A stretch of 64,000 bases of DNA from Anaerobaca lacustris (GCF_030012215.1 NZ_JASCXX010000005.1:124001-188000), one strand, 5' to 3'; shown: positions 40,390 to 62,332, counted from the stretch's first letter. Notes: generated from the sequence alone by a model not told the origin. Made by a program: numbers and translations.

Positions 40390-40418
40390 TCCACCGCATC
40401 CTGGGATCGCACGTCCAA

Positions 40419-41517: not shown

Positions 41518-41613
41518 AGCGGTGATTTGACAAACGGCGCGATACGACATGGAGACAAGAATGCCAGTTGCAGTCGGCGGACACAACGGACCTCTGAAGG
41601 AGATGACGCGACC

Positions 41614-42339
41614 ATGACTCGGGATGTCGCCCTGATTACAGGCGCATCGAGGGGGATCGGCGCCGCCGTCGCGATTCGTCTGGCCCAGGACGGATACGAT
41701 ATCTGGCTGAACTATCGCAGCAATCACGAGGCCGCCCAGGAGGTGGCCCGTCAGATCGCCGACCTGCAGCGACGGTGTGTCCTGTTGCCGTTCGACGTGT
41801 CCGACGACGCAGCCGCTGCCGAGGCCCTGGGGCCTCTCCTCAAGGAGCAGACCCCTTACATTCTGGTCAACAACGCGGGCATCAATCGCGACGGTCTGCT
41901 GTTCTGGATGTCTCGGAAAGACTGGAAAGACGTGCTCGACGCCAGCCTGGACGGGTTCTACCATGTGACCAGCCGGGTGGTCGGCCTGATGATGCAGAAG
42001 AAGCGCGGACGCATCGTCAACATCGTATCGACGTCAGGACAGACCGGGATGCCCGGACAGGTGAACTATTCGGCCGCCAAAGCGGGCCTGATCGGCGCCA
42101 CCAAGGCCCTGGCCAAAGAGGTCGCACGGAGCGGGGTCCTGGTCAACGCGGTGTCTCCGGGGTTCATCGAAACGGACATGACCAAGGACCTGCCCAAGGC
42201 AGATCTGCTCAAGATGGTCCCCCTTCGGCGTTTCGGTACGGCGGCCGAAGTGGCGGGCGCCGTGGCCTTCTTGTGTTCCGACGACGCGGCCTATGTCACA
42301 GGCCACGTTCTCAACGTCAACGGTGGGATCCACGTGTGA
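41614..42339 (+). CDS. 3-oxoacyl-ACP reductase (FabG-type)
   Basis: 241 residues, short-chain dehydrogenase. Cofactor motif TGASRGIGAA (10-19), NNAG at 86-89 and catalytic Ser139, Tyr152 and Lys156 (VNYSAAK) are all present. It reduces the 3-keto group to hydroxy with NADPH after each condensation. GAAGGAGA stands upstream of ATG 41614. It opens the second long transcript and is 55 bases before a ketosynthase. By analogy with aryl polyene pathways it is the dedicated ketoreductase (ApeQ role); it could also serve normal fatty acid synthesis. Confidence 0.92.
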   Translation: MTRDVALITGASRGIGAAVAIRLAQDGYDIWLNYRSNHEAAQEVARQIADLQRRCVLLPFDVSDDAAAAEALGPLLKEQTPYILVNNAGINRDGLLFWMSRKDWKDVLDASLDGFYHVTSRVVGLMMQKKRGRIVNIVSTSGQTGMPGQVNYSAAKAGLIGATKALAKEVARSGVLVNAVSPGFIETDMTKDLPKADLLKMVPLRRFGTAAEVAGAVAFLCSDDAAYVTGHVLNVNGGIHV

Positions 42340-46436: not shown

Positions 46437-46683
46437 GAAAGTGATTGAGGTTGTCAACCAGAGCCTGGCCGAGGAGTTCGAGGTCGATCCGGAGACGTTA
46501 AAGCCCGAAGCGCACCTCATAGAAGACCTGGGGTTTGACAGTCTCGATTTCGTGGATATGGTGGTCGTCTTGCAGGAAGCGTTCGGCGTGATGCTGAGAG
46601 AAGAGCCGCGCGTCCGCGAGGTGAGGACGCTGGGCGATCTGCACCGCCTGGTGATCGACAAGAAACGAGAGCTCGAGTCGTAA
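46426..46683 (+). CDS. Acyl carrier protein (second)
   Basis: 85 residues with phosphopantetheine site DLGFDSLDFVDM, Ser39. GTG start at 46426 chosen because GGGAG stands eight bases upstream, inside the end of the preceding ketosynthase gene; GTG 46411 is another possibility. Helix 2 (SLDFVDMVVVLQEAFGVML) is less acidic than that of the first carrier. Lies between a ketosynthase and an acyltransferase, as one of two carriers in aryl polyene clusters. Confidence 0.9.
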   Translation: MTDEKVIEVVNQSLAEEFEVDPETLKPEAHLIEDLGFDSLDFVDMVVVLQEAFGVMLREEPRVREVRTLGDLHRLVIDKKRELES

Positions 46684-46741: not shown

Positions 46742-47542
46742 ATGAGAGCAAACAGTCCTGAGGCAGTAGGGCCGCCGTATCTTGAGCAAAAGCCGGCCTC
46801 TGCGCTGACGATCGTTCTCATGAACATCTGGGTTCCACTGCTCATGGTCCTCGAGACCGCGATCGGCATCGTCCTTATTCCACTGGGGTTGCTCGTGTGG
46901 CGACTGGTTACGCGGTGGCCCCTGGCCAGGATCATGCGCCATTTCGTCTGGATCTACGGGCGCGTCTGGATGTGGATCGTCTCGCCGTTCGTTCGCTTCG
47001 AACTGGTCGGGGCCGATCGCGAATGGGCCAAGCGACCCATCATGTACGTCGCCAATCACCTGTCGTTCGTCGATATCTTCTGTCTGTCGGCCATGCCCGT
47101 CTTCGACGTCATCATTTGCCTGCGGGCCTGGCCGTTCAAAATGGTGTGGTTTGCGCCGTTCATGCGTCTGGCCGAGTACCTGGACGTGGAGTCCCTGCCC
47201 TGGGACGAGATTGTAGCCAAGAGCAAGAGCGTCTTCCGCGCGGACCGGTCGATGCTGGTCTTTCCCCAGGGCCATCGCAGCCGGGACGGTCGGCTCGGGC
47301 GCTTCTACTCCGGCGCTTTCAGGCTGGCGCTTCAGTCCGGCGTTCCCATCGTCCCGATCTGCATCGCGGGCACCGACCGGGTCTCTCCGCCGGGGCGCCG
47401 ATGGCTGGAGCCGTCCCGCGTGCGCATCGAATGTCTCGAACCGATCGATCCGAAGCAGTTCGAAGGCGATCTGGGGCACATTGAGTTGCGTCGAACCGTC
47501 AAACAGAGAATGGAGGCCTGCCTTGCACGGTTGTGCGCCTGA
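46742..47542 (+). CDS. 1-acyl-glycerol-3-phosphate-type acyltransferase (LPLAT/PlsC family)
   Basis: 266 residues. Two hydrophobic segments at about 22-55 and 65-85 hold it in the inner membrane. Catalytic HX4D is NHLSFVD (His106, Asp111); the second block is VFPQGHRSRDGRLGRF and the third PIVPICIAGTDR. It transfers acyl groups from carrier protein or CoA to a lipid alcohol. Aryl polyene clusters have a PlsC-like protein at this spot (ApeD role). ATG 46742 has GGAG eight bases before it; an ATG at 46694 gives 16 more residues. Confidence 0.85.
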   Translation: MRANSPEAVGPPYLEQKPASALTIVLMNIWVPLLMVLETAIGIVLIPLGLLVWRLVTRWPLARIMRHFVWIYGRVWMWIVSPFVRFELVGADREWAKRPIMYVANHLSFVDIFCLSAMPVFDVIICLRAWPFKMVWFAPFMRLAEYLDVESLPWDEIVAKSKSVFRADRSMLVFPQGHRSRDGRLGRFYSGAFRLALQSGVPIVPICIAGTDRVSPPGRRWLEPSRVRIECLEPIDPKQFEGDLGHIELRRTVKQRMEACLARLCA

Positions 47543-48899
47543 TTCGTCGAGGGACGGTCGGGGCAACGCCCTGGCCGGCCTGGAGCCCGCCGAAGCCCTG
47601 GCCTTTGCGTCGGCGCCGGAGATCGAGGCGTGCGCCAACCGCCTTCTGCAACGGCACGTGCAGTACTGCTACGAGCGATCCGATTTTTATCGGTCCCACT
47701 TCGACCGTCTCGGCCTCGACGCCGGGGATATACGATGCGTCGCCGACCTGCGGAAGCTGCCCTTCACCACGAAGGACGACCTGGCCGAACATGGGGCGCG
47801 GCTGCGATGCGTCGCGCCGCGCGACATCGTCGATCTGTGCCAGACCTCCGGCACCACCGGTGCGCCTGTCACGCTCGAGCTGACCGAGTTGGACCTCCAG
47901 CGGCTGGCGTACAACGAGCAGTCCTGCTTCGAAGCGGCCGGTCTGACGGCCGACGACCGCGTGATCGTGGCCTGTGCGATGGGGCGTTGCTTCATGGCGG
48001 GGCTGGCGTATTTCGAGGGATTGCGTCGGCTGGGCGCCACGGCGATCCGGATCGGGGCCGGACGCCCCGCCGTCCTGGCCGAAGCCGTGCGTATCCACAG
48101 ACCCACCGCCGTTGTCGGGGTGCCGTCCAACCTGCTGCAAACAGGCAAGCTGTTGCAGAGCCGGGGCATCGAGCCGTCTCAGATGGGCGTCGCCAGACTC
48201 ATTCTGATCGGCGAACCCATACGCGAGGCGGATCTGTCGCTCTCAGCCCTGGGCCGGCGTCTGAGCGAATTGTGGAAGGCGCAGGTGCTGGGGACTTATG
48301 CGAGCACGGAAATGGCCACCTCTTTCGCGGAGTGCGACGGGGGTTCCGGCGGCGGGCACGTCCTGGCCGATCTGATTGTCGTCGAGATCGTGGACGAGGC
48401 CGGCAATGCCGTCGCGCCGGGCGAACCGGGCGAAGTGGTCGCCACGCCGCTCCAGGTGACCGGGATGCCGCTGCTGCGACTCCGGACGGGAGACATTGCG
48501 GCTCTGCTTCCGGGGCCTTGTGCCTGTGGCCGCCGGACACCGCGCCTGGGGCCCGTGCTGGGCCGCAAGGCTCAGATGTTGAAAGTGCAAGGCACCACGC
48601 TGTATCCGGCCTCCATCTTCGCCGCGTTGCAGGAGATCGAGGAGGTGCGGAATTACTATATCGAGATCGAGCAGGACTACGAACTGTCCGATCACCCTCG
48701 CGTGGTGGTCGGTCTCGAAGACGGTGCCTCTATGACCCGTGAGGAAATTGCCGGTCGGATCTGCGGCCGCGTGCGCGTCACCCTCGACGTGGCGATCGCC
48801 ACCCCCGAGGAAGTCGCGAAACGGACACTGCTGGAGAACCGGCGCAAGCCGATGCTGGTGTTTGACTATCGCCACAAGACCAAGAAAGGACCTGCGTAA
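47523..48899 (+). CDS. AMP-dependent aryl-acid ligase (phenylacetate-CoA-ligase-like)
   Basis: 458 residues, adenylate-forming enzyme. Nucleotide motif TSGTTGAP at 108-115; LGTYASTEMATS is the A5 region, and RTGDIAALLPGPCACGRRTPRLGPV matches PaaK-like ligases. It activates an aryl acid with ATP and passes it to CoA or an acyl carrier. Start TTG at 47523 is inferred from GGAGG six bases before; it overlaps the acyltransferase by 20 bases. Next to an ammonia-lyase, it should activate the aryl acrylate made by that enzyme as a starter unit (ApeH role in aryl polyenes). Confidence 0.87.
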   Translation: MHGCAPDSSRDGRGNALAGLEPAEALAFASAPEIEACANRLLQRHVQYCYERSDFYRSHFDRLGLDAGDIRCVADLRKLPFTTKDDLAEHGARLRCVAPRDIVDLCQTSGTTGAPVTLELTELDLQRLAYNEQSCFEAAGLTADDRVIVACAMGRCFMAGLAYFEGLRRLGATAIRIGAGRPAVLAEAVRIHRPTAVVGVPSNLLQTGKLLQSRGIEPSQMGVARLILIGEPIREADLSLSALGRRLSELWKAQVLGTYASTEMATSFAECDGGSGGGHVLADLIVVEIVDEAGNAVAPGEPGEVVATPLQVTGMPLLRLRTGDIAALLPGPCACGRRTPRLGPVLGRKAQMLKVQGTTLYPASIFAALQEIEEVRNYYIEIEQDYELSDHPRVVVGLEDGASMTREEIAGRICGRVRVTLDVAIATPEEVAKRTLLENRRKPMLVFDYRHKTKKGPA

Positions 48900-48900: not shown

Positions 48901-50499
48901 ATGAAACGACCGGAGGTCGTTCTCAACGGCAATGATCTGAGCGTCGATGATATCGTCGCGGTTGGCATAGGGGACAAAACGGTGGCCCTGGCCCCATCCG
49001 CCCTTGAGCGGTGCCGGCGAAGCCGGACGTTTCTCGAAGCGCAGGTGGCCGCGCGCAACGTGATCTACGGCGTCAACACGTCCTTTGGGCCGATGTGCAA
49101 CAAGATCATCGGCGACGACGAACTGGAAGCCCTCCAGGTAAATCTGATTCGCAGCCATGCGGCGGGCCTGGGAGACCCTCTGAAATACTACATCGCTCAG
49201 GCTGTGATGGTCGTGCGGCTGAACACGCTGCTCAAAGGCTACAGCGGCGTGCGGATCGAGCTTCTCGAATTGATGCGAGAGATGATCAACCGGGGCATCG
49301 CCCCGTATATTCCCGAATGCGGCAGCGTCGGCGCCTCAGGCGATCTGGTGCACCTGGCCCACATGGCCCTGGCCCTCATCGGCGAAGGGCAGGCCTTCCA
49401 CAAAGGCCGGCTGACAAGCGCTCGGGAGGCGTTGCAGGCCGAAGGGCTGGAACCGATCCGGCTGAGTTTCAAGGAAGGGATCGCCCTGATCAACGGAACC
49501 AGCGCGATGACGGCGCTGGCGGCCTTTGCGCTGTTCGGCGCCCGAAAGCTGCTGTCGTTGAGCTGCGTGACCGCGGCCTTTGCCCTGGAGATCTTCGGGG
49601 GGATTGACGACGCCTTCGACGAGGACCTGCACCTGCTCAAGCCCCATCCGGGTCAGCAGCAGATCGCCGAGACGGTTCGCCGCTTGTATCACGGATCGCA
49701 CAACATCACGCTGCGCGACGAGATGCACGGGCGCATCCGCCGCGAAGAGGTCAAAGGCGCGTATTTCGAAACCAGCGTCAACGTTCAGGACGTGTATTCG
49801 ATTCGGTGCACCCCGCAGATTCTTGCGCCCGTCCAGGAGAATCTGGACCAGGCCGCCGCGACGATCCACATCGAAGCCAATTCGGTCAATGACAATCCGG
49901 TGATCATTCCGGAGAAGAACAAGGTCATCCACGGCGGCAACTTCCACGGTCAGAGCATCGCCTTTGCCATGGACGCCCTGTGTATGGCGATTGCCGAGAT
50001 AAGCACGTTGAGCGAGCGGCGGATCAACAAGCTGCTGGACAAGAACCTCAACGAAGGCCTGCCCGAGCTGCTGATCGCCGGAACGGTGGGCCTGACCATG
50101 GGATTCATGGGGGCCCAGTACGTGGCCACCTCGACCACGGCCGAGAATCGGCAGTTGGCCAATCCGGTCGGCACGCTGTCGATTAGCTGCAATGCGTCGA
50201 ATCAGGACGTGGTCAGCATGGGCACGGTCGCGGCGCGAAAGGCGTTCCGGGCGGTGAGCAACGCCAAGCACATTCTGACGGTCGAGGTACTTGCAGACCT
50301 TCAGGCTCTGTACTTCCGTGGCGCCGGGGGCCTCGGGAACGGCTGTCGGCGCATTCACGACTTGCTGTCCGAGCACTTCGTCGTCTACGACAACGGGCGG
50401 ATCTTCCACGACGAGCTGGTGAAGTTTCGCAAGCTGCTCTTTTCGAGCCAGTTGTTCGACGATCTCAATGTGTATTGTGATGGAGACTGTGCGTCATGA
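48901..50499 (+). CDS. Aromatic amino acid ammonia-lyase (HAL/PAL/TAL family)
   Basis: 532 residues. The MIO prosthetic group forms from Ala145-Ser146-Gly147 in GSVGASGDLVHLAH; the catalytic Tyr56 is in YGVNTSFGP. NDNPVI and SISCNASNQDVVSMG are other conserved blocks. The residues that often tell substrate preference read RSHAAGLG, with Ser-His as in histidine lyases, so the sequence alone points to histidine while the location beside an aryl-acid ligase points to tyrosine or phenylalanine. Its product, 4-coumarate or cinnamate, would be the aryl starter. Stop overlaps the next dehydratase by ATGA. No other histidine-degradation genes are present nearby. Confidence 0.87.
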   Translation: MKRPEVVLNGNDLSVDDIVAVGIGDKTVALAPSALERCRRSRTFLEAQVAARNVIYGVNTSFGPMCNKIIGDDELEALQVNLIRSHAAGLGDPLKYYIAQAVMVVRLNTLLKGYSGVRIELLELMREMINRGIAPYIPECGSVGASGDLVHLAHMALALIGEGQAFHKGRLTSAREALQAEGLEPIRLSFKEGIALINGTSAMTALAAFALFGARKLLSLSCVTAAFALEIFGGIDDAFDEDLHLLKPHPGQQQIAETVRRLYHGSHNITLRDEMHGRIRREEVKGAYFETSVNVQDVYSIRCTPQILAPVQENLDQAAATIHIEANSVNDNPVIIPEKNKVIHGGNFHGQSIAFAMDALCMAIAEISTLSERRINKLLDKNLNEGLPELLIAGTVGLTMGFMGAQYVATSTTAENRQLANPVGTLSISCNASNQDVVSMGTVAARKAFRAVSNAKHILTVEVLADLQALYFRGAGGLGNGCRRIHDLLSEHFVVYDNGRIFHDELVKFRKLLFSSQLFDDLNVYCDGDCAS

Positions 50500-50936
50500 C
50501 GTTGCCTGCCGACACAGAGCAATTCATGCTGCATCGCGCGCCCATGCGGCTGGTCCAGCGGCTCCTGCGCGTTGACGGCGATCAGGCCGAGGCCGAAGCC
50601 CGGCTCGAACCCGGCGACGTCGGGGTCGGTCCGGACGGAAAGGTGGAGCGAACGGCCCTCATGGAAATGGTGGCCCAGACCTATGCGGCCGCACGAGGCT
50701 ATCTCGATCTGGCCGAGGACGCCTCTCCGGCCCTGGGGTATCTGGTCGGAGTCGGCGATTTTCGCGTCATCCGTGCGCCGCAAGCCGGTGAGCGGCTGCG
50801 CATCGAGGTCCAGTCGGCCAATTCCTTCGAGGATTTCTACGCGGTGGAGGGATGCGTTCGCTGCCGGGACGAGATCCTGGCGACGGGAACGCTCAAGGTC
50901 TGGCAGCAACCCCAGACGGGACCCCAGACCGCGTAA
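50496..50936 (+). CDS. Hotdog-fold 3-hydroxyacyl-ACP dehydratase (first)
   Basis: 146 residues. N-terminal FMLHRAPMRLVQRL carries the catalytic histidine in the LPHR-like motif of the aryl-polyene dehydratase (ApeP-type) family; the central ALMEMVAQTYAAARGY replaces the usual long hotdog helix. It removes water from a 3-hydroxyacyl carrier to give an enoyl group, which remains unreduced in polyene pathways since no enoyl reductase is coded here. Overlaps the ammonia-lyase stop (ATGA). Two different dehydratases in one cluster is the aryl polyene rule. Confidence 0.8.
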   Translation: MTLPADTEQFMLHRAPMRLVQRLLRVDGDQAEAEARLEPGDVGVGPDGKVERTALMEMVAQTYAAARGYLDLAEDASPALGYLVGVGDFRVIRAPQAGERLRIEVQSANSFEDFYAVEGCVRCRDEILATGTLKVWQQPQTGPQTA

Positions 50937-50965: not shown

Positions 50966-53416
50966 ATGCGTTCGCACAAGCTTTCGTTGGAGTCGGTTTT
51001 GCGCTCTCAATTCCAGACAAATCTCATCGGTCAAACCGTGACGTGGGTCTTTCGGATCGGAGACCGTCATCGGCGAACTCTGGGACTGTGCCTGCTGGCG
51101 CTGACGCTTCTCGGCGGCTGGCTGGCCTTGCAGGTGTCCACGGAAGAGGATATCGCCGTGATGCTTCCGGACAGCGATCCGGTGTTTGCCGCCAGCTATG
51201 CTCTGCTCAAGAAGGCCCCATTTTCGCGCAGCGTGTTGATCGATCTGGAGGCTCCCGTCGAAGGCCAAGCCGCCCTGCTGGCCCAGACGGCCGAGCGCTT
51301 GCGGGAACGCTTGCAGCCGCCCTGGATTTCGCAGGTGATTGGAGGGATGTCGATGGAGTCGGGCGCCCGGCTCCTGGACGGCCTCTTCGCACACATGCCG
51401 CAACTGTTCACGGAGGAGGACGCCGCCGCGCTGGCGGCGAGAATGGCCCCGGAGCAGGTGGGCGAAACGTTGCAGACCAGTCTCAACGCGCTCAGCGGCC
51501 CCGAAGGTCTCTGGCTGGCCCGATGGCTCAGCCGCGACCCGCTGGCCTTTCGCAATCAGGCGTTCCGCAAACTGGCGACGGTCGCCGTGCTCCCCGACGT
51601 CGGGATCGAGGATGGGGCGCTGATCGATCCGACCGGCCGGCACACCCTGTTGGTGGCCGAAACACCGGTGTCGATGGAGGACTCGCAGGGCAGCGAACAG
51701 TTGCTTCGGTATCTCGATGAGGTCATGGCCGAGGTCGTTCCCGATACGCTCACCGCGCGTGTGGTGTGCGCCCATCGCTACACCGTCGCCAACGCCCGCG
51801 CCATCAAGCGCGACCTGGTGGTGGTTTTTGCCGTCTCTTGCGTGGGACTCATCGCGGTGTTCGTGTCTCTTCTGCGGCACTGGCGGGCGGTGTTCGTCTT
51901 CCTGGTCCCGGTGTTTGCCATTCTGGCCGGCGTGCTGGCGACGGCGGCGGTCTTTCGCATGATCTCCGTGATGACGGTCGGGTTCGGGGCCGTGCTGCTG
52001 GGCATATCGGTGGACTATGGGTTGCACGTGTTTTTTGGCCTGGGCCAGCGGCAATCGGATCGAGCGGGATACATGTCACGGCTGGCCGTGCCGATGGTCG
52101 TCTCGTGCGCCACGACCGTCGGCGTCTTCGCCGTGCTGCTGTGGTCGGGCCTGCCGATTCAGCGCCAGCTCTCGATCTTCTCCATCGCCGGACTGCTGAC
52201 GGCATTGGTCCTGGCGATTGCCTGGTTGCCGCACTGGATGGCCGAACAGAAGGCGGGCCGATGGATGGCGATCCCGGAAATCGGCGGCAAGGGGCGGCGC
52301 TGGGTCGTCGCGATCTGGCTCGTCCTGCTGATCGCCTGTGCGCCTTTCTGTCTGCGAGTCAGGTTCGACGGCGACTTGCGCAATGTCGGACTGACGCCCG
52401 AGGACGTGTTGGCCGACGAATACGCCATACGCGACGCCTGGGGAGACCCGCGCGGCCAGGCGCTGGTCGTGGCTCAATCCGACGATGTCCAGTCCACCTT
52501 GGAGATGAACGAGCAGGTCTACGCCCAACTGGCTGAACTCTGGGGACCGGGGGAGCTGATCAGCCTGGCGCCTCTGCTGCCGAGCCGAGCCACGCAAGAG
52601 GCGAACCTGGACCGCTGGCGCCGATTCTGGCACGAGGAGGGCCGACTGGATCGGCTGCGCCAGACCCTCGGCGCCGAGGGCGGCAAACTGGGGTTCACAC
52701 AGGAGGCATTTGCGCCGTTCTTTACGTGGGTTGAGCGGGATCGCGCACCGTTTGACGTGGTGGAATTCAAGCAGCTTGCCGGCTCTCTGCTGGACCTGCT
52801 GTTCCTGTCGCGTTCGGAGGGCCTGGGCCTGATCAGTCTCGTTCCGGATAACGAGCAGACCATCGAAGCGTTCGGCGCCGGCGGCCTGGCCTTGCCGCCG
52901 GGCGTCGAGGCCATCTCGCAGAAGTGGTTTGCCTCCATCCTTCGCCGGTCGCTGGAAAAGGACTTTCAACGATTTCTTCTGCTGGCGTCCGTCGTCGTCG
53001 TGATCGTGCTGATCGCGGCGTTGCACCGTCCGTCGGAAGTGCTCCTGTGCCTGCTGCCGCCTGTGACGGGGCTGGCGTTCATGCTGGCCGTCATGGGGCT
53101 GTTGGGCATGAGCGTGAACATGTTCAACGTCGCAGCGAGCGTGCTGGTCATGGGACTCAGCATCGACTACGGCGTCTTTATCGTGCGGTCCCGCTGGGCG
53201 TCCGGACCGGTCCGAGACGGCGCAGCCGAACGAGCGGTCGTCACCTCGGCGCTGACCACACTCTGCGGCTTCGGCGCGCTGTCGGTGGCCCGCCATCCGG
53301 CGATGTTCTCCCTTGGCATCACGGTTGTTTTGGGTATAATCCCTGCTATGGTCTGTGCCCTTCTGGTCATACCTGCATTGCAGCACCGGACCACTGGCGA
53401 ATTGGAATCACGATGA
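50966..53416 (+). CDS. MMPL-family (RND) lipid exporter
   Basis: 816 residues with 12 predicted membrane segments in two halves, each with a large periplasmic loop after the first helix (VSTEEDIAVMLPDSDPVF in the first). Repeated helix blocks (GFGAVLLGISVDYGLHVFF and AASVLVMGLSIDYGVFIV) carry the acidic Asp-Tyr pair used in proton relay. MMPL/HpnN-type exporters take hydrophobic lipids from the inner membrane. In aryl polyene clusters such a protein (ApeM role) hands the polyene lipid to LolA-like carriers. Its stop overlaps the next gene by ATGA. Confidence 0.88.
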   Translation: MRSHKLSLESVLRSQFQTNLIGQTVTWVFRIGDRHRRTLGLCLLALTLLGGWLALQVSTEEDIAVMLPDSDPVFAASYALLKKAPFSRSVLIDLEAPVEGQAALLAQTAERLRERLQPPWISQVIGGMSMESGARLLDGLFAHMPQLFTEEDAAALAARMAPEQVGETLQTSLNALSGPEGLWLARWLSRDPLAFRNQAFRKLATVAVLPDVGIEDGALIDPTGRHTLLVAETPVSMEDSQGSEQLLRYLDEVMAEVVPDTLTARVVCAHRYTVANARAIKRDLVVVFAVSCVGLIAVFVSLLRHWRAVFVFLVPVFAILAGVLATAAVFRMISVMTVGFGAVLLGISVDYGLHVFFGLGQRQSDRAGYMSRLAVPMVVSCATTVGVFAVLLWSGLPIQRQLSIFSIAGLLTALVLAIAWLPHWMAEQKAGRWMAIPEIGGKGRRWVVAIWLVLLIACAPFCLRVRFDGDLRNVGLTPEDVLADEYAIRDAWGDPRGQALVVAQSDDVQSTLEMNEQVYAQLAELWGPGELISLAPLLPSRATQEANLDRWRRFWHEEGRLDRLRQTLGAEGGKLGFTQEAFAPFFTWVERDRAPFDVVEFKQLAGSLLDLLFLSRSEGLGLISLVPDNEQTIEAFGAGGLALPPGVEAISQKWFASILRRSLEKDFQRFLLLASVVVVIVLIAALHRPSEVLLCLLPPVTGLAFMLAVMGLLGMSVNMFNVAASVLVMGLSIDYGVFIVRSRWASGPVRDGAAERAVVTSALTTLCGFGALSVARHPAMFSLGITVVLGIIPAMVCALLVIPALQHRTTGELESR

Positions 53417-53805
53417 AACCACTGAGGAATGAAATTCTGGCGTGTGCAGAGGGCCCCGTGCTCAGCCGCGAGGACGATCGGGCCTTCGAGCTGACGTACC
53501 ACTTCGGCAAGGACTTCACCGCGTTCGCCGGCCATTTTCCGGGCCGTCCGATTCTGCCGGCCTTCGTGCAACTGCTGGCCGGCGAGTGTGCGATGCAGAC
53601 CCGCGCGCGGCGCGAGGTGGTCTTGCAGCGGGTCAAGCGGGCCAAGTTTCTCAAGCCGATTCAGCCGGACCAGAAGATCACAGTGTGTTGGCGCGAACAG
53701 CCGGCGGACGGTGGGGTGCGAGGCAGCTTCACGCTCCTCGCTGACGGGGAGAAAGCGGCCACGTTCACTCTCGAGATGACGGTGACGGGGCAGGCTGATG
53801 TATAA
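53413..53805 (+). CDS. 3-hydroxyacyl-ACP dehydratase (FabZ/ApeI-like, second)
   Basis: 130 residues, hotdog fold. FAGHFPGRPILPAFVQLLAGE contains the catalytic His41 (HFPxRPxxP) and the acidic Glu58. KRAKFLKPIQPDQKI is the usual second block. It dehydrates 3-hydroxyacyl carriers. Overlaps the exporter upstream and the thioesterase downstream by 4 and 8 bases. The ApeI family has the same FxGHFPGxPILPA core. The pair of dehydratases and absent enoyl reductase predict a conjugated polyene rather than a saturated chain. Confidence 0.88.
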   Translation: MKPLRNEILACAEGPVLSREDDRAFELTYHFGKDFTAFAGHFPGRPILPAFVQLLAGECAMQTRARREVVLQRVKRAKFLKPIQPDQKITVCWREQPADGGVRGSFTLLADGEKAATFTLEMTVTGQADV

Positions 53806-54259
53806 ACCGTATTTCCGCGCCATACCCGGAGCGCCACCGCCCTTGCGGCTCACCTTGAATCGGCAAGTCCGCTTCGAAGAGGTGGATTCGATGGGGGTTG
53901 TCTGGCACGGACGTTACCCCAGCTTTTTCGAGGATGGCCGTGTGGCTTTGGGACGCCGGTACGGGATCAGCTATTCCGATTTCATCCGCGAAGGGGTCCC
54001 GGTCCCGGTGCGGCAGATACAGATCGACTACTGTCATCCCCTGAGGTTTGAGGACGAATTCGAAATCGAGACGATCCTGCATTGGTCGGACGCGGCCCGC
54101 ATCAATTTCGAGTATGCCATCCGCAATCTGCAGGGCCGGCTCGTGGCCACCGGGTGCACCGTGCAACTGATGCTGGACCGCGATTTCAACCTGCTTCTGG
54201 GACCGCCGCCCTTCTTCGCCGAGTTTCTGCGGCGGTGGAGACAGGGGGATCTGGTTTGA
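53798..54259 (+). CDS. Acyl-thioesterase (4HBT hotdog family)
   Basis: 153 residues. Active-site block VRFEEVDSMGVVWHGRYPSFFEDGRVALG with Asp30 and His37 matches 4-hydroxybenzoyl-CoA-type thioesterases (ApeK role in aryl polyene sets). It frees acyl chains from carrier protein or CoA, either to release product or to correct wrong starter units. Overlaps neighbours by 8 and 4 bases. Confidence 0.88.
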   Translation: MYKPYFRAIPGAPPPLRLTLNRQVRFEEVDSMGVVWHGRYPSFFEDGRVALGRRYGISYSDFIREGVPVPVRQIQIDYCHPLRFEDEFEIETILHWSDAARINFEYAIRNLQGRLVATGCTVQLMLDRDFNLLLGPPPFFAEFLRRWRQGDLV

Positions 54260-55386
54260 GCGTGGTTCATGTGGCCGATGCAAACGCCGTCACGGCTCTC
54301 GGGCCAGGCGCCGATACCCTGTGGGAGGCGCTGTTGGCCGGGCGCAGTGGACTGACCCCGGTGCGACGGTTCGCCACCGACAATTACCTCTGTCATCAGG
54401 CCGGCTGCATTGCGTCCCTGGACCCCGAACCGCAGACCTCCCGCCTGGACAAACTGACGGAGATGCTCTTTGACGGAATCGAGCCGATTCCGCCGGAGAC
54501 GACACTGCTTACGGCGACCACCAAAGGAGGCATCGACCAGCTCGAGCGGATCGTGCGAGGGCAAGAGACGGGCCGCGATCGCGTTCTCGGTCACACAATC
54601 GCCGAGGCGATGGCTGCGCGGCTCGGCCTCAAGGGCCCTTGGAACAACATCAATGCGGCCTGTGCATCGGCCGCCGTGGCTCTGGCTCTGGGTGCGGCGC
54701 ACATCCAGCACGGCCTGGTCGATTCGGTTCTCGTGTGCGGACTGGACCTGGTCTCGGAGTTCACGTTCTCCGGCTTTGCGGCGTTGAAGGCGTTGTCGCC
54801 CGACGTGTGTCGTCCGTTCGACGTCGCGCGCGAGGGCCTGGTTCTAGGCGAAGGCGCCGCCTACGTGCTGCTGATGAGCGAGAAGGCCCTGCGCCGAACG
54901 AAGCGGAGAAGCCTGGGCCGGCTGGTCGGCTGGGGCATTGCCTCGGACGCCCATCATGTCACGGCCCCGTCGCGAACCGGCGAAGGACTCGTGCTGGCGA
55001 TTCGGCAGGCCCTGGCCGGCGCCGCGCTGACGGCGGCCGACGTGGCGGCCGTCAACGCGCACGGCACGGGATCGATCTACAACGACGCCATGGAACTGGC
55101 CGCCTTTGGCCAGCTCTTCGACCGGTTGCCACCGCTCCACTCGGTCAAAGGGGCAACGGGCCATACGATGGGGGCCTGTGGGACGATCGAGACGATTGTC
55201 GGATTGTGCAGCCTGAAGCACCAGTGCCTCCCCCCCACCGCCGGGCTCTCGACGCCCGAGGACAAGGCGAAGGGGTGCGTCGCAGCCGAAGTCCAGCGCT
55301 TCTCCGGCGAGTATCTGCTGATGACCAACTCCGGGTTCGGCGGGATCAATGCCGCCCTCATCCTGGGTCGGGAGGCGTCGATATGA
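54256..55386 (+). CDS. Beta-ketoacyl-ACP synthase, second pair, active subunit
   Basis: 376 residues, TTG start overlapping the thioesterase stop (TTGA). Triad present: Cys136 (NAACASAA), His269 (NAHGTGSIYND) and His303 (VKGATGHTMGACG). Followed by a short degenerate synthase that overlaps by ATGA. In aryl polyene clusters such a synthase plus short partner forms the ketosynthase/chain-length-factor heterodimer (ApeO/ApeC roles), which adds malonyl units until the chain fills the pocket. Confidence 0.9.
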   Translation: MSVVHVADANAVTALGPGADTLWEALLAGRSGLTPVRRFATDNYLCHQAGCIASLDPEPQTSRLDKLTEMLFDGIEPIPPETTLLTATTKGGIDQLERIVRGQETGRDRVLGHTIAEAMAARLGLKGPWNNINAACASAAVALALGAAHIQHGLVDSVLVCGLDLVSEFTFSGFAALKALSPDVCRPFDVAREGLVLGEGAAYVLLMSEKALRRTKRRSLGRLVGWGIASDAHHVTAPSRTGEGLVLAIRQALAGAALTAADVAAVNAHGTGSIYNDAMELAAFGQLFDRLPPLHSVKGATGHTMGACGTIETIVGLCSLKHQCLPPTAGLSTPEDKAKGCVAAEVQRFSGEYLLMTNSGFGGINAALILGREASI

Positions 55387-56120
55387 AGCTGGAGATCGCA
55401 GGCGCCGGATGGGTGACGCCCGCAGGGATCGGCCACAGCCGTGGTGGCGCGGCATTTGCGCCTGGTTCCGGGGCGCTGCCGCGTCTGCGGAGCACGCTGT
55501 TTCTCGACGCAGCGCACCCTCGCTATGGCCGGTTCGATCTCTATGCCAAGGCAGGGTTCGGCGCCATTGCGATGGCCCTGCGGGGCGCCGGTCTGGAGCG
55601 GTGGGAATGCAAGCGGCCCATCGGCCTCGTCGTGGGCACACAGCGCGGCTGTCTGGACAACGACGTGGCCTACTTCCGAACCGCGGCCACGGACGGCGGC
55701 GCCCTGGCCAGTCCGAATCTGTTCGCCTACACGCTGCCGACGTCGATGCTCGGCGAAGCGTCCATCCAGTTCGGTCTGACCGGCCCGAGCTTCGTCGTGG
55801 ACAACACTCACGTCGGCCGAATGGACGGGATTCATGCGGCCCTGGATTTGCTCCGCTTGGGCCTTTGCAGTACGATTGTGGCCGGTTGGTGTGATGTCCA
55901 CTCCGAGATATTCTCCGGGGATCCAGGCGAACCTTGCGGCGCTGTGTTTGCCGTGCTGAGCCGGGGCGGCGAGCGGGCCGCCTGGCAGTGGCAGGAAAAG
56001 CGACTCGTGCACGATTGCACGCCTATTGATACGATCGAGCGCCTGGTTGCCGTGGTGCTGGAGCGCACCGCTGCGGACGGCCGGAACAAGAACGATGAAG
56101 ATACGGGTGTTGACCGATGA
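55383..56120 (+). CDS. Short degenerate ketosynthase partner (ApeC-like chain-length factor)
   Basis: 245 residues, only the N-terminal half of the synthase fold. Ungapped alignment with the preceding synthase sets His143 (VDNTHVGRMDGI) at the catalytic cysteine position, and the C-terminal histidine motifs are absent. ApeC-type proteins have this size and act only in complex with their active partner. Its stop and the next start overlap by 4 bases, which tie it to the first radical SAM gene. Confidence 0.8.
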   Translation: MKLEIAGAGWVTPAGIGHSRGGAAFAPGSGALPRLRSTLFLDAAHPRYGRFDLYAKAGFGAIAMALRGAGLERWECKRPIGLVVGTQRGCLDNDVAYFRTAATDGGALASPNLFAYTLPTSMLGEASIQFGLTGPSFVVDNTHVGRMDGIHAALDLLRLGLCSTIVAGWCDVHSEIFSGDPGEPCGAVFAVLSRGGERAAWQWQEKRLVHDCTPIDTIERLVAVVLERTAADGRNKNDEDTGVDR

Positions 56121-57385
56121 AGATGAAGCTGATCTATCCGGCGTGGCCCAAGCTGAAACGCCAAACGACCTTTCACCTGCCGCCGCACGGACCGGTCGTG
56201 TTCGCCGCCACGGTGCCTGAAGACGTCGAGATCGTGTTCGAAGACGACAACGTCCAGGAGGTGAATCTGGACGAGCAGGTGGATCTGGTGGCAATATCGA
56301 CGATGTTGACCTGCCAGCTCCCGCGGGCGTTCGAGATCGCGGACGCATTTCGCGCCAAAGGGGTGCCTGTCATCTTCGGCGGGATCTCCACCATGCTGCA
56401 CAGCGAAGAGGTGGCCGGGCACGCCGACTCCGTGTTCCTGGGCGAAGCCGAGGGCCGGTTTGGACAGGTGATCGAGGATTTCCGCGCCAATCGACTCAAG
56501 CCGGTCTATGATTTCATGGGCACTCATCCGTCGGCCGACCAGGTCGGTCCGGCCCGGCGCAGCGTCCTGAACCGATCGCTGTACAACTATCGCGGCGTAC
56601 AGATGGTGGACCTCGTGCACGCCTCGCGCGGCTGCAAGTTCAATTGCTTCCCCTGTTGCAGCGCGTTTCTCGGAGGCAAGCAGTTTCGTCCGCGTCCCAT
56701 CGACCGGGTGGTGGAAGAACTGGAGCAGATTCAGAACAACCGGCTCTTCATCGTCGACAATTCCCTGGCCCAGGACCGAGATTGGATCATGGATCTGTTT
56801 CGGGCCATGACGCCGCTGAAGAAGAAGTGGGTTTCGCATCCGATCTTCTACGACGAGGAGGTCATCGCACTGGCCGCAGAGGCCGGCTGCTGGTACGTAT
56901 ACCAGGCCGTGTTCGACACGTCCGACGTGATCCGAGACCGCATTCGCATGCTCCAGGACCACGGCATCGGCGTCGAAGGCACGATTCTGCTGGGCACCGA
57001 CGACCACGACGTCGATTCCATCAAGCGTCTCGTGGATTTTCTCTGCGAGATCCGCCTGGACGTTGCGGAGTTCACGATCCTGACGCCGTTTCCCCACAGC
57101 CCGATCCGAGAGCAGTTCGAGCGGGAAGGCCGCATCCTGAGCAGCAACTGGGCGGATTACACCGCCGACAAGGTCGTGTTCCAGCCCAAGAAGATGTCCG
57201 TGGACCAGTTGCAGGAGATCTACGAATACGCGTGGGACACGTTCTACGCCGATGCAGGATACCAGCTTCGCATGGGCCAGTTGTTCCAGAAGGTCATCGA
57301 GCGGGAGATGGCCGACGGGACCTATCGGCGCTACGATCCCCGCATCCGAAAGCGATTCCAGCGGAAGGCGTTGGAGCAATCATGA
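56117..57385 (+). CDS. Radical SAM protein with cobalamin-binding-like N-terminal region, 1 of 3
   Basis: 422 residues. The N-terminal ~130 residues form a cobalamin-binding-like alpha/beta domain (VDLVAISTML, VPVIFGGISTML, ADSVFLGEAEG), without the DxHxxG histidine that would ligate cobalt. The radical SAM core has CxxxCxxC at Cys173, Cys177 and Cys180 (RGCKFNCFPC) for the [4Fe-4S] cluster. Such enzymes methylate unactivated carbon or do other radical changes. In tandem with two relatives and linked to polyene genes by a 4-base overlap. Reaction unknown. Confidence 0.85.
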   Translation: MKMKLIYPAWPKLKRQTTFHLPPHGPVVFAATVPEDVEIVFEDDNVQEVNLDEQVDLVAISTMLTCQLPRAFEIADAFRAKGVPVIFGGISTMLHSEEVAGHADSVFLGEAEGRFGQVIEDFRANRLKPVYDFMGTHPSADQVGPARRSVLNRSLYNYRGVQMVDLVHASRGCKFNCFPCCSAFLGGKQFRPRPIDRVVEELEQIQNNRLFIVDNSLAQDRDWIMDLFRAMTPLKKKWVSHPIFYDEEVIALAAEAGCWYVYQAVFDTSDVIRDRIRMLQDHGIGVEGTILLGTDDHDVDSIKRLVDFLCEIRLDVAEFTILTPFPHSPIREQFEREGRILSSNWADYTADKVVFQPKKMSVDQLQEIYEYAWDTFYADAGYQLRMGQLFQKVIEREMADGTYRRYDPRIRKRFQRKALEQS

Positions 57386-58785
57386 GCCGGGTCCTACTGA
57401 TCTCCGCGAACACCTGTGTCGATCCCTATCCGGTCTTTCCGCTGGGAATGGCCACGGTCGCCGCCGCGCTGACCGAAGCGGGTCACGAGGTTCTCCAGTT
57501 CGACTGGCTGGCGGCTGGGGAGGTTGCCGAAGCGCTGTCGAAGGCCCTCGCGGCGTTCGGCCCGGACGTGGTGGCCGTGTCGATCCGCAATCTCGACCGG
57601 GTCGACTCCCTGGCCGAGTCCAACGAGGGCTGGGAATTGCGCGGGGCCCGGGACGTGATCGCCCTTCTCAGAAAGCAGATGGACGTTCCCATCGTCGTCG
57701 GAGGTCCGGCCGTCTCGATCATGCCTCGCGAAGTGCGCGCCTACGTCGATGCCGACGTCGCCATTGTCGGCGAAGGCGAGCGCTCCATCGTCGAAGTCGT
57801 CGAGGCCGCGGCGCAGAGTGGTTCCCTGCCGGAGATCTGGCCGAGCGAGTCCGAACGATTATCCGGCGTGGGGCAGCGCTCGCCCTGTCTTGACCCGTCT
57901 CTCGTTTCGTTCTACTGGAACGCCAGCGGCATCCTCGGCCTGCAAACCAAACGGGGTTGTTCCTATCACTGCTGCTACTGCACCTATCCGGGCCTGGAGG
58001 GCCCGTGCTTCCGTCCCCGTCCGGCCGAGGCGGTGGTGGCTGACGTGGAGCGACTCAAACGCGATTTCCAGGTCGATACGGTGTTCTTTGCGGATTCCGT
58101 CTTCAACGATCCGGCCGGACACTACCTGGAACTCGCCGAAGCGCTGGCCAGACGAGAACTGGGCGTCAAATGGGCCGCGTATTTCTCTCCGAAGGGAATG
58201 AACCGCGAGGCCGTCGCCTTGTGCCGGCGAGCCGGGCTCTACGCGGTGGAGTTGGGGGTCGATGCGGCCAGTGATGCCACGCTGCACGGAATGGGCAAGG
58301 CCTTCACCTGGGCCGATGCCCGCGAGGCCACCGACATGCTCAGCCGATCGCACGTCGCCTGCGCGCAGTTCATCATCTTTGGCGGGCCCGACGAGACGGC
58401 CGAGACGGTCGAGGAAGGCCTGAACAACATCGCGGCGCTGGAATACTGCGTGGTCTTCGGTTTCTCAGGCATTCGGATCTATCCCGCCACGCCCCTGCAT
58501 CGGCGCGCGCTGGCCGAGGGCGTCGTACAGAAGGACGAATCTCTGTTCGAGCCGGTCTATTACATCTCGCCGACGGTCGACAAGACCTGGATGGATCGGC
58601 GACTGACCGAGGCGTGGGCCCGTCGGCCGGATCGCGTCTTCCCTCCGCAACGGGGCTATCGCGTCACCGCCAAGCTGCGCAGCCTGGGCTGGAAGGGATT
58701 GCTTTGGGAACGGTTGATCGCACGATGGCCGTCGGAAACGACGTCCGATGGCGTCGGCGACGCAAGGACGGTCGAGCATGGATAA
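57382..58785 (+). CDS. Radical SAM protein with cobalamin-binding-like N-terminal region, 2 of 3
   Basis: 467 residues. B12-type domain at about 1-145 (PLGMATVAAALTEAGHEV, VVGGPAVSIMPREV, VAIVGEGERS), then the radical SAM cluster motif Cys193, Cys197, Cys200 (RGCSYHCCYC) with the further block YAVELGVDAASD. C-terminal helical region without a known extra domain. ATGA overlap with the first, 8-base overlap with the third. Sequence differs enough from its two neighbours that each probably does a different step, not a redundant one. Confidence 0.85.
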   Translation: MSRVLLISANTCVDPYPVFPLGMATVAAALTEAGHEVLQFDWLAAGEVAEALSKALAAFGPDVVAVSIRNLDRVDSLAESNEGWELRGARDVIALLRKQMDVPIVVGGPAVSIMPREVRAYVDADVAIVGEGERSIVEVVEAAAQSGSLPEIWPSESERLSGVGQRSPCLDPSLVSFYWNASGILGLQTKRGCSYHCCYCTYPGLEGPCFRPRPAEAVVADVERLKRDFQVDTVFFADSVFNDPAGHYLELAEALARRELGVKWAAYFSPKGMNREAVALCRRAGLYAVELGVDAASDATLHGMGKAFTWADAREATDMLSRSHVACAQFIIFGGPDETAETVEEGLNNIAALEYCVVFGFSGIRIYPATPLHRRALAEGVVQKDESLFEPVYYISPTVDKTWMDRRLTEAWARRPDRVFPPQRGYRVTAKLRSLGWKGLLWERLIARWPSETTSDGVGDARTVEHG

Positions 58786-60217
58786 ACAGCGTGTCTTGTT
58801 GATTCATCCCCTGGGGTACGATGCGCAGGTGGCCGGCCGCGACATCTCGCGTCTGGCCAATCTGATGCCCCCGTTGGGGCTGGCCGGCATCGCCGCCTAC
58901 GTCGAGCAATACGGATTTCACGCCGACATCATCGACTGCTTCGCCGATCCCGACTCCGACCGGGTGATCGACGACTACGTGCGCCGTTATCAGCCGGGAT
59001 ACGTCGGCGCCACCTGCACCACGGCCGGTTTCCTGGACGCCGCCCGGATCTTCAGCCGCATCAAGCAGACGCACCCGGAGACCTGCACCATCGCCGGCGG
59101 CCCGCACGCCTCGGCGCTGCGCGACACGATCGTCCGCGACTACGAAGAAGTGGACTACGTCGTCGTCGGAGAGGGCGAAGGACCGCTGAAGTCGCTTATG
59201 GAATCGGGCGGAAGGCCCGAAGGAATCGCCGGACTGGCCTATCGCGACGGGGGACAGATCGCGTTCAACGGGTTCCAGGACAATCGGCTGGACCTCGATA
59301 CGCTGCCGCTGCCGGCCTATCACAAGCTCGCGGGCTTTCCGCAGCGGTATCAGTTGCCGATCTTCAACTATCCGAAGACGCCGAACACCAGTTGCATCTC
59401 CAGCCGCGGCTGTCCGTATCAGTGCAGTTACTGCGACCGCTCCGTGTTCCGGCGGTCGTTCCGCTACAATTCCGCCGACTATCTCGTGCAGCATCTGAGC
59501 CATCTCAGGAAGCAGTTCGGCATTCGCCACATCAATTTCTATGACGATCAGTTCACGTTCCATCGCGATCGCGTCGTGGCCTTCTGCGAACGGATGATCG
59601 AACATCCGATGGGGATGACGTTCAACTGTGCGGTGCGGGCCGAGCACGTGGACCCGGAACTGCTGGCCTTGATGAAGCGGGCCGGCTGCTGGATGATCAG
59701 TCTGGGAATCGAGACGGGCGATCCCGACCTGCTGGCCCAGCACCGACAGAACCCGGACCTCGAACTGATGGCCGAGACCGTACGCCGCATCCATCGAGCC
59801 GGGATTCGCGTCAAAGGGCTCCTCATGATCGGCCTGCCGGGCGAAACGGAACGGAGCTTTCGCCGCACGATGGACTACGTGTTCTCTCTGCCGATCGACG
59901 ATCTCAACATGGCGAAGTTCACCCCCTTCCCCGGGTCGCCGCTCTATGAGAAGATCCACGAGTTGGGCTCGTTCGAGGAGAACTGGGAGAAGATGGATTG
60001 CATGAACACGGTGTTCGTGCCCCACGGGATGACGGCCGAGCAACTGGAGCGTTTGTTTCTGGAGTTCTACAAGCACCATTACACACGGCCCAGGACACTA
60101 TGGAACTTCGCGAGCATGGTATGGAAATCGCCGGACAGTTGGAGACGATTTCTCCTGAACGTGGGCAGCTTCGTTCGCTTCGCCCGCAAGAACCGCCGCA
60201 TTGTGGAACGGTCCTGA
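58778..60217 (+). CDS. Radical SAM protein with cobalamin-binding-like N-terminal region, 3 of 3
   Basis: 479 residues. B12-type domain (MPPLGLAGIAAYVEQYGF, CTIAGGPHASALRD, YVVVGEGEG), cluster motif Cys212, Cys216, Cys219 (RGCPYQCSYC) and the SAM-barrel block MISLGIETGDPDLL. Resembles the large family that includes anaerobic Mg-protoporphyrin cyclase-like and hopanoid-modifying enzymes. The last gene before the glycosyltransferase, with only two bases between. Its reaction and substrate are not predictable; the lipid/polyene context is the main clue. Confidence 0.86.
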   Translation: MDKQRVLLIHPLGYDAQVAGRDISRLANLMPPLGLAGIAAYVEQYGFHADIIDCFADPDSDRVIDDYVRRYQPGYVGATCTTAGFLDAARIFSRIKQTHPETCTIAGGPHASALRDTIVRDYEEVDYVVVGEGEGPLKSLMESGGRPEGIAGLAYRDGGQIAFNGFQDNRLDLDTLPLPAYHKLAGFPQRYQLPIFNYPKTPNTSCISSRGCPYQCSYCDRSVFRRSFRYNSADYLVQHLSHLRKQFGIRHINFYDDQFTFHRDRVVAFCERMIEHPMGMTFNCAVRAEHVDPELLALMKRAGCWMISLGIETGDPDLLAQHRQNPDLELMAETVRRIHRAGIRVKGLLMIGLPGETERSFRRTMDYVFSLPIDDLNMAKFTPFPGSPLYEKIHELGSFEENWEKMDCMNTVFVPHGMTAEQLERLFLEFYKHHYTRPRTLWNFASMVWKSPDSWRRFLLNVGSFVRFARKNRRIVERS

Positions 60218-60219: not shown

Positions 60220-61407
60220 GTGGCGGCGGTCGAGCACATTACCGTAGTGATTCCGGTCTACAATCAGCCGGACTGCCTCCGGGACGTTGTCTCCCGCTGC
60301 CTGGCCGAGCATCGGCGAGTCCTGATCGTCGACGACGGCAGCAAACCATCTGTCGAGCCGCTCTTGGAGGGCCTGCCCGTCGAGGTGATCCGTCACGACG
60401 TCAATCGGGGCAAGGGCCAGGCCCTTCGCACGGCGGAGCGCCATCTGCGCGAGCGCGGCGATACGCATATGATTACGCTCGACGCCGACGGTCAGCACTA
60501 TCCCGAAGATCTGCCCCGCTTCATCGAGGCCATCGACCGGCATCCCGATGCACTGATTGTCGGCGTGCGGGATTTTGCACAGGCCACCATTCCCGGCGCC
60601 TCGCGCTTCGGACGGGCGTTCGGCAACTTCTGGGTACGCATTCAAACGGGGACGCGCGTACACGACATCCAGAGCGGATTCCGAGCGTATCCCCTGTCCG
60701 CCTTCAAGCGTCTTCGCTGCCGCGCGCAGGCGTACGCGTTCGAGGTCGAAATCGTGGTTCGCGCCCTGTGGGGCGGTGTCAAGGTGCACGAGGTGCCGAT
60801 CCACGTGCATTACCCCAAGCCCGGCCAGCGCGTCTCCCACTTCCACAAGTTCTACGACAACGCGCGCCTGGCCTTGCTGAACACCCATCTGACCATACGG
60901 GCGATCGTGCCGTGGCCCCACCGTCAGGTGGCGACCACGGAGGCGGAAGCAACGGTGACTGTATGGCACCCATTGCGTTCGATTCGCATGTTGCTGACCG
61001 AGCGGGCGACCCCGCGCGAGCTCGGTTTCGCCGTGGCGCTGGGCGTCTTTCTGGGCGCCGTGCCGCTGATTGCCTTGCATACGCTGGCGATCCTGATCGC
61101 GGCGGCCCTGCTGCGGCTCAATCGCGTCGCCGCCGTCGCGGCCAGTCAGCTCTGCATGCCTCCGGTCGTGCCCGCCCTGTGTATCGAAGCGGGATACTTC
61201 ATGCGACACGGCTCCTTCCTGACACTCCAGGGCGTCAAACACCTCTCCTCCAACGCCTCTTTCCTGGAGCTCGGATACATGGGCCTGGAACGCCTCTGGG
61301 AGTGGCTGCTCGGTTCATTGCTCGTCGGGCCCGCTCTGGCCCTGGTGCTGGGCCTGATGACCTACATCGCGGCGCGCATCATCGAAAGGGCCCGGCATGA
61401 GCACTGA
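60220..61407 (+). CDS. Glycosyltransferase family 2 fused to DUF2062 membrane domain
   Basis: 395 residues, GTG start. N-terminal GT-A domain: HITVVIPVYNQPDCLRDVV, RVLIVDDGS, and LDADGQHYPED with the metal-binding DADG (88-91), like dolichol-phosphate-sugar synthases. From about residue 260 a DUF2062 membrane domain (ATPRELGFAVALGVFLGAVPL, then two more hydrophobic segments). It should transfer a sugar to a lipid acceptor at the inner membrane. Aryl polyene clusters have one protein made of GT2 plus acyltransferase (ApeJ role); here these are two genes overlapping by 11 bases. Confidence 0.85.
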   Translation: MAAVEHITVVIPVYNQPDCLRDVVSRCLAEHRRVLIVDDGSKPSVEPLLEGLPVEVIRHDVNRGKGQALRTAERHLRERGDTHMITLDADGQHYPEDLPRFIEAIDRHPDALIVGVRDFAQATIPGASRFGRAFGNFWVRIQTGTRVHDIQSGFRAYPLSAFKRLRCRAQAYAFEVEIVVRALWGGVKVHEVPIHVHYPKPGQRVSHFHKFYDNARLALLNTHLTIRAIVPWPHRQVATTEAEATVTVWHPLRSIRMLLTERATPRELGFAVALGVFLGAVPLIALHTLAILIAAALLRLNRVAAVAASQLCMPPVVPALCIEAGYFMRHGSFLTLQGVKHLSSNASFLELGYMGLERLWEWLLGSLLVGPALALVLGLMTYIAARIIERARHEH

Positions 61408-62332
61408 GCCGCAAGGGCCGGGCGTCTCGAACGCCCAGTGGGATTCGCGCAGCGTGGGCAGGCGATGGCAACAGGCCTTCTTCGCAACGCTGATCCGCAT
61501 CGGAGGACGCCGGCCGGCCTATGCATGCATGTACCTCGTGGTCCTGTGGTACGTCTTGTTGCGGCCTTTCGTGCGCCGGCGATGCCGATACTACCTGGAC
61601 CGGCGCTTTCCCGACGTGACGAACCCGCTGATCCGGCTCTGGCATGACTACCGACGGATCGTGGCCCTGGGCGGATCGCTCATCGATCGCGGCGCGTTCG
61701 GTCTGCTCGGCCCCGGCACGCTGAAGGTGGAGTTCCCGGAGGGCCGGGACCTTCAGGCCCTGGTCGACGAGGGCCGGGGGCTCATCGTCCTCAACAGCCA
61801 CGTGGGTTGCTGGCAGGTAGCGATGTCCGCCTTCAGCTACTTACATGTGCCCGTCAGCATCGTGATGCACCAGCGGGCCGGCGACATCGACCCACGGTGG
61901 TTTCAACGCGCTGGAGAGGAGGCGGGGCTGTCGATCATCGATCCGGCCAAGAACATGGGGGGCATCATGGAGATGATCGGCACGCTCAAACGCAGGGAAA
62001 TCCTGGGACTCATGGCCGACCGCGTCTTCGGCGATGACCCCAACACCCTGGAAGCGACGTTTCTCGGGGCGCCCGTGCATTTCCCTGTCAGTCCCTATCG
62101 CCTGGCCTCGATGCAGGGCACGCCGGTCGCGGTGGTCTTCAGCTACAAGACGGGCTTCTCAACATACCGCATCCAATTGGCCCGGGTCATCCGTGTCCCC
62201 ACCGGCCTGGGACGCTCCAACGAGGCTTATGTCCCCTATCTTCAGGAATTCGTCGCGGCCCTGGAGACCTTCGTTCAGTCTCACCCCTGGCAGTTCTTCA
62301 ACTTCCACGATATGTGGCAGCAATCGACCTGA
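61397..62332 (+). CDS. LpxL/HtrB-like lipid acyltransferase
   Basis: 311 residues. One membrane segment near 42-58, then the catalytic HX4E-like block NSHVGCWQ at 133-140 (His135, with Gln at the usual Glu position), followed by IGTLKRREILGLMADR and FLGAPVHFPVSPYRLA, all typical of late lipid A acyltransferases. Acylates a glycolipid in the inner membrane with carrier-bound fatty acid. Paired with GT2 by overlap, it should assemble the polyene or fatty chain onto the glycolipid anchor. It is the last gene of the long operon. Confidence 0.85.
   Translation: MSTEPQGPGVSNAQWDSRSVGRRWQQAFFATLIRIGGRRPAYACMYLVVLWYVLLRPFVRRRCRYYLDRRFPDVTNPLIRLWHDYRRIVALGGSLIDRGAFGLLGPGTLKVEFPEGRDLQALVDEGRGLIVLNSHVGCWQVAMSAFSYLHVPVSIVMHQRAGDIDPRWFQRAGEEAGLSIIDPAKNMGGIMEMIGTLKRREILGLMADRVFGDDPNTLEATFLGAPVHFPVSPYRLASMQGTPVAVVFSYKTGFSTYRIQLARVIRVPTGLGRSNEAYVPYLQEFVAALETFVQSHPWQFFNFHDMWQQST

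Follow-up and report, generated by a model that had tools for sequence, protein, structure and literature searches.

The closest described relatives of the locus examined here are the flexirubin cluster flxA-flxY of Chitinophaga pinensis (PMC3992019), the aryl polyene (APE) cluster apeA-R of E. coli (PMC8253772) and the clusters proposed to make ladderanes in anammox bacteria (Kuenenia kuste2802-2805, 3335-3352 and 3604-3608; PMC2649909, PMC4790861). Flexirubin starts from TAL and 4CL and carries a methionine-derived methyl group (PMC3992019). We analysed a stretch of 64,000 nucleotides from Anaerobaca lacustris (GCF_030012215.1, NZ_JASCXX010000005.1:124001-188000; hereafter the window) in which three consecutive radical S-adenosylmethionine (SAM) genes, RS1, RS2 and RS3, lie inside a polyene-type operon. 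A sequence-only reading had singled out these genes as mutually different, overlapping by 4 and 8 bases, equipped with intact CxxxCxxC motifs and foreign to standard aryl polyene clusters, and had suggested methylation of the product or a link to ladderanes. We find that the trio is a real, conserved and uncharacterised cassette within a recognisable type of pathway, and that it probably decorates an aryl-polyene product rather than making anammox ladderanes.

RS1 (56117-57385, 422 aa, with an alternative ATG at 56123), RS2 (57382-58785, 467 aa) and RS3 (58778-60217, 479 aa) are complete open reading frames (ORFs) arranged head to tail on the + strand, with overlaps of 4 bases between RS1 and RS2 and of 8 bases between RS2 and RS3. 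They follow a ketosynthase (KS) gene and its partner, KS3/CLF3, the latter also overlapping RS1 by 4 bases, and run on without a gap into a GT2 glycosyltransferase and an acyltransferase. The cysteine motifs are C173KFNC177FPC180 in RS1, C193SYHC197CYC200 in RS2 and C212PYQC216SYC219 in RS3. By family scores the three are distinct, with RS2 a member of TIGR04072 (rSAM_ladder_B12), RS3 near BchE and HpnJ, and RS1 above no NCBI family cut-off, so that ORFs, motifs and scores together uphold the description given by the sequence-only reading. Its mention of cobalamin-binding-like regions holds for RS2 and RS3, where both the Radical_SAM and B12-binding domains exceed the Pfam cut-off, and less well for RS1, which falls slightly below the gathering thresholds (B12-binding 29.7 against 32.1, Radical_SAM 23.2 against 29.5), with DUF4070 slightly above its own (22.8 against 22.0), though a Rossmann domain is predicted. 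Judging by fold and motifs, RS2 and RS3 would bind cobalamin, and binding by RS1 is doubtful.

Of the 147 other genomes in the order to which the window belongs, 4 have an RS1 orthologue at 45% identity or more (G384, G426, G406 and G368, 63-83% identity); the phylum sample added G019, G192 and, at 47%, G033. The G384 assembly, a scaffold interrupted by N gaps, gives no usable gene order. As conservation among near relatives was patchy, a wider scan of contigs with RS2 was needed, and this revealed a like gene order in metagenome-assembled genomes (MAGs) assigned to Desulfobacterota and Myxococcota and in Hydrogenedentes (L088), Elusimicrobia (L108), Omnitrophota, Opitutales and others. The window's RS2 belongs to a clade that spans Desulfobacterota, Hydrogenedentes, Elusimicrobia, Omnitrophota, Verrucomicrobiota and Planctomycetota; among the loci of this clade with room for a neighbour, RS1 immediately precedes RS2 in 31 of 36, and in 17 of 36 RS3 comes immediately after RS2. 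RS3 is thus an optional member, absent or unlinked in many relatives and relocated, for example, in G426. Because order and neighbourhood recur in distant phyla, the arrangement of the trio is beyond chance, and the conserved neighbourhood on which the sequence-only reading had staked its proposal is borne out by the adjacency of RS1 and RS2.

Neighbouring genes travel with the cassette as well. The lyase described below is present in 19 of the 27 other loci having 6 kb upstream, and Bacteroidales loci share a related layout (lyase-FabG-KS1-ACP-LPLAT2-RS2-TE-KS3), three of them with an RS1 at 58-60% identity adjoining the lyase. Gene order is near-identical in one Hydrogenedentes and one Desulfuromonadaceae MAG, with the lyase 72% identical, and in the RS1 tree the window copy is sister to the Hydrogenedentes RS1 (100/98), apart from the other Planctomycetota. 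The RS1 placement, the lyase identity across phyla and the patchy presence fit a spread of the cluster by horizontal transfer. The search of the window genome yielded no heme-copper oxidase (PF00115), but the RS1 carriers G019 and G192 have one, and a strict rule that RS1 occurs in anaerobes only was therefore rejected. A whole-genome search also placed one TAG within the RS1 match region of these two genomes (L033, L032), where RS1 may end differently at its C terminus. Bacteroidetes relatives of the cluster (L131:621-4854 and L131:11794-15258) carry BtrH_N/DUF4872 proteins and ABC-transporter-like genes, with a sulfotransferase-like gene adjoining RS1, and a cluster of this kind in the cultured Desulfosediminicola flagellatus contains an extra SPASM radical-SAM gene (L117:7109-8158).

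RS2 scores 577 bits against TIGR04072 (cut-off 360), followed by BzaD (180 bits) and TsrM (TIGR04428, 102 bits against a cut-off of 500), and BzaD then TsrM are likewise the next-best families for the anammox-group and Bacteroidetes RS2 (three clades tested). A profile of 55 RS2 sequences matches TsrM (6wte), a tryptophan C2-methyltransferase, with E 7e-60 across most of its length. The structural model (pLDDT 92.9) aligns to TsrM (6wte/6wtf) along its full length with Z 36.4 and a root-mean-square deviation (rmsd) of 2.5 over 441 residues, the next entries reaching Z 27.9. In TsrM, Arg69 sits under the cobalt and weakens the methyl-cobalt bond, and Glu273 keeps SAM off the iron-sulfur cluster (PMC8992657, PMC13331322). 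Arg69 is invariant in RS2 (55/55), whereas the position of the blocking Glu273 holds V, I or T in 55/55 sequences and Glu in 0/55. Since the arginine is kept and the glutamate replaced, RS2 may hold cobalamin in a TsrM-like pocket while leaving its cluster open to SAM for cleavage. By analogy with TsrM, C-methylation is the likeliest single function for RS2, and the earlier suggestion of methylation is plausible. The window genome also encodes a second, distant TIGR04072-like protein (L047; G000:C12:32958-34256) which at 231 bits lies below the cut-off and has no polyene genes nearby.

RS1 is the most conserved of the trio across phyla. Its orthologues are distributed over several phyla and for the most part share 58-83% identity with the window copy; at this level of identity, every copy whose surroundings could be seen sits in a polyene cluster. 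The orthologues form an unnamed orthogroup with a CX3CxPC motif, in which Pro precedes the last cluster Cys in 37/37 sequences and is replaced by Phe in 14/14 paralogues. The RS1 model (pLDDT 92.9) consists of an N-terminal B12-like Rossmann domain and a radical-SAM barrel and is nearest to the radical-SAM diol dehydratase AprD4 (6fd2; Z 33.2, rmsd 2.5, 373 residues; next 27.2), yet the two differ in motif, share about 20% identity and RS1 reaches 41 of the 500 bits set for the AprD4 family (NF033070). RS3 ties between BchE (166 bits), HpnJ (167 bits) and the Sden_1168 family (up to 173 bits), all far under cut-off.

The surrounding genes, all on the + strand, form a main run at 41527-62332 in which successive genes are -20 to 113 bases apart. 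It opens with a FabG/ApeQ-like ketoreductase (41527-42339, a later start being likely), the ketosynthase KS1 (42395-43618), a CrtI-like FAD oxidoreductase (43732-45168), the ketosynthase KS2 (45195-46436), an acyl carrier protein (ACP, 46426-46683), a PlsC-like acyltransferase (ApeD-like, 46742-47542), a PaaK/FlxY-like aryl-CoA ligase (47523-48899) and a TAL-like aromatic amino-acid lyase (48901-50499), the sole such lyase in the genome. Downstream lie an ApeP-like hotdog dehydratase candidate (50496-50936), an MMPL/RND exporter (ApeM-like, 50966-53416), an ApeI-like dehydratase candidate (53413-53805), a 4HBT thioesterase (TE; ApeK-like, 53798-54259), KS3 (54262-55386) and its short KS-like partner CLF3 (55383-56120); the trio is followed by the GT2 glycosyltransferase with DUF2062 (ApeJ-like, 60220-61407) and an LpxL-like acyltransferase (61397-62332). 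Both dehydratase candidates were named by reading and weak similarity and give no Pfam match. About 1.1 kb away a second group (35430-40389) holds the ketosynthase KS0 (35430-36620), its chain-length-factor-like partner CLF0 (36617-37660), a PagL-like outer-membrane protein (37633-38238), a putative lipoprotein with a lipobox (38428-39006), a LolA-like carrier (ApeL-like, 38972-39760) and U39 (39757-40389), a protein of no assigned family found beside LolA in relatives too. The PagL-like gene, of the lipid A 3-O-deacylase family, overlaps the end of CLF0 in a different frame. The cluster halves are split by a minus-strand ORF (40419-41369) with a lipoprotein-like start and no Pfam match, and the gap at 40390-41526 has no homologue among the loci compared. 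The Cys-His-His active site is kept in KS0-KS3 and absent from CLF0, which lacks the active Cys, and from CLF3, which lacks the active residues; domains, active sites and layout thus agree with the polyene-type operon of the sequence-only reading.

The window contains the set typical of aryl polyene and flexirubin-type clusters, namely type II KS/CLF, ketoreductase, ACP, exporter, LolA, thioesterase and acyltransferase, together with a lyase (PF00221, 564 bits) and a CoA ligase (FlxY, 434 bits) indicative of an aromatic starter. The lyase has an RSH motif and its closest structure in the PDB is a tyrosine aminomutase. Urocanase was not found in the window genome, in G426 or G384, nor in the Hydrogenedentes and Desulfuromonadaceae genomes (G437, G438), and since the window genome lacks it a role of the lyase in histidine degradation was rejected; from sequence, tyrosine is most likely its substrate. 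Like flxA-flxY, the cluster has an ammonia-lyase, a FlxY-like ligase, several KS, a ketoreductase, dehydratases, LolA, a glycosyltransferase, an acyltransferase and an exporter. It departs from flxA-flxY in its additional CrtI-like gene and three radical-SAM genes, and in that no dialkylresorcinol genes (DarA/DarB) were seen within the cluster, the only part of the genome inspected for them. With apeA-R it shares KS/CLF and counterparts of ApeQ, ApeI/ApeP, ApeK, ApeD, ApeJ, ApeL and ApeM, but its starter is predicted to be lyase-derived and not 4-hydroxybenzoate, and no ApeB-type or class I SAM methyltransferase domain or motif was detected among the cluster ORFs. In the two papers cited for them, the radical-SAM trio is described for neither the E. 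coli APE nor the Chitinophaga flexirubin cluster, in line with the earlier remark that standard clusters lack it.

We consider it about an even chance that this gene set makes an APE/flexirubin-like lipid and includes a radical-SAM cassette dedicated to it, with RS2 methylating the product. Under this reading the lyase would convert an aromatic amino acid, most likely tyrosine, to cinnamate or coumarate, which the FlxY-like ligase would activate as starter, and the KS/CLF pairs, FabG and dehydratases would lengthen it to a conjugated polyene on ACP, with the CrtI-like enzyme introducing or rearranging unsaturation. Thioesterase, acyltransferases and GT2 would then tether the polyene to a lipid, and the MMPL exporter and LolA would carry the product to the outer membrane. 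All three radical-SAM enzymes would modify the aryl polyene. RS2 would most likely move a methyl group from methylcobalamin onto an sp2 carbon of the aryl ring or chain, standing in for the missing class I methyltransferase; RS1, with its AprD4-like fold and its own motif, would perform a conserved radical step of unassigned chemistry, and RS3 an optional further step of BchE, HpnJ or methylase type, perhaps also a C-methylation of the aryl polyene.

Several points weigh against this reading. The lyase and ligase fall below the flexirubin equivalog level (FlxA 475 of 700 bits, FlxY 434 of 520 bits), so that specificity for tyrosine is predicted only; relatives of RS2 are found in lyase-free loci too, anammox and others, so that the RS2 substrate need not be aryl; and a fold like that of TsrM is no proof of methyl transfer. 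Relatives of OxsB and BchE form rings or rearrange their substrates, and the CrtI-like and radical-SAM enzymes could jointly cyclise the chain. It is possible, though doubtful, that all three enzymes cyclise, desaturate or rearrange in the manner of BchE, HpnJ, OxsB or AprD4, so that the product would bear a non-ladderane ring or a changed aryl end but no added methyl group. The RS3 scores for BchE and HpnJ, the dehydratase nearest to RS1 and the presence of OxsB among the fold neighbours of RS2 speak for it, whereas BzaD and TsrM are the closest relatives of RS2 in sequence and fold, the TsrM arginine is retained, and RS1 is remote from AprD4 in both identity and family score. That the trio acts on a lipid or sugar anchor by way of GT2 and the acyltransferases, and not on the polyene, is unlikely; GT2 and LPLAT2 directly follow the trio and are conserved along with it, and the AprD4 substrate is a sugar, but Bacteroidales RS2 homologues lie amid KS, TE and LPLAT genes even without an adjacent GT2, and RS1 in Bacteroidetes is close to an ACP gene.

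The ladderane link raised by the sequence-only reading, in which RS2 with CrtI and RS1 would fold the polyene into concatenated cyclobutanes or similar rings, follows the anammox proposal of Rattray 2009 and later papers (PMC2649909, PMC13142503). Its basis stands in that RS2 and the anammox copies all exceed the TIGR04072 cut-off and that KS, PaaK-like ligase, MMPL, GT2, FabG and CrtI-like genes are common to the window and the anammox clusters. In the RS2 tree (a quick search with SH-aLRT support only, the relevant splits at 99-100), however, the anammox copies are separated by a 99-supported split from the window's clade of 44 sequences; they comprise named Brocadia and Jettenia records and three genomes (G088, G168, G258) taken as anammox from their grouping with these. 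The same three genomes contain no PF00221 lyase and no RS1 orthologue, merely distant RS1-like proteins, and the window CrtI is just 23-32% identical to anammox homologues. Ladderanes were not detectable in the syntenic Desulfotalea, the two Kuenenia CrtI homologues showed no phytoene desaturase activity on expression, and a part for any of these genes in making ladderanes is a proposal. With RS2 outside the anammox clade and a differing gene content, membership of the anammox type was rejected, and the ladderane reading, thus weakened, keeps a small share as a very unlikely explanation. A MAG titled Candidatus Brocadiaceae (L113) carries window-type RS1 and RS2, unlike the named anammox genera, so that the anammox line is not absolute by name.

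Reports of 'ladderane' clusters in non-anammox bacteria come from automatic annotation (PMC9902471, PMC11968836) and from Rattray et al. 2009, a text that at no point speaks of an ammonia-lyase or an aryl group; among the open-access papers searched we found none linking such clusters with an aryl-polyene lyase pathway. Many TIGR04072 genes lie in lyase-bearing, aryl-polyene-like clusters of non-anammox bacteria, and as many of the RS2-type clusters examined look like aryl-polyene pathways that use an aromatic starter, a shared RS2 enzyme is no marker of ladderanes. The label on many non-anammox clusters thereby gains a concrete alternative in the aryl-polyene pathway. A bolder and rather improbable extension is that RS1 founds a new radical-SAM subfamily performing an unprecedented aryl-polyene step such as ring closure or C-C bond formation, with RS2 as a TsrM-like, radical-competent partner and the anammox ladderane clusters as a derived branch of aryl-polyene machinery. 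Two enzymes are of interest for assay, RS1 for its odd motif and RS2 for its predicted TsrM-type cobalt pocket and open cluster, and the homologous, lyase-driven pathway offers a comparison from which to ask which features of the anammox clusters are specific to ladderanes.

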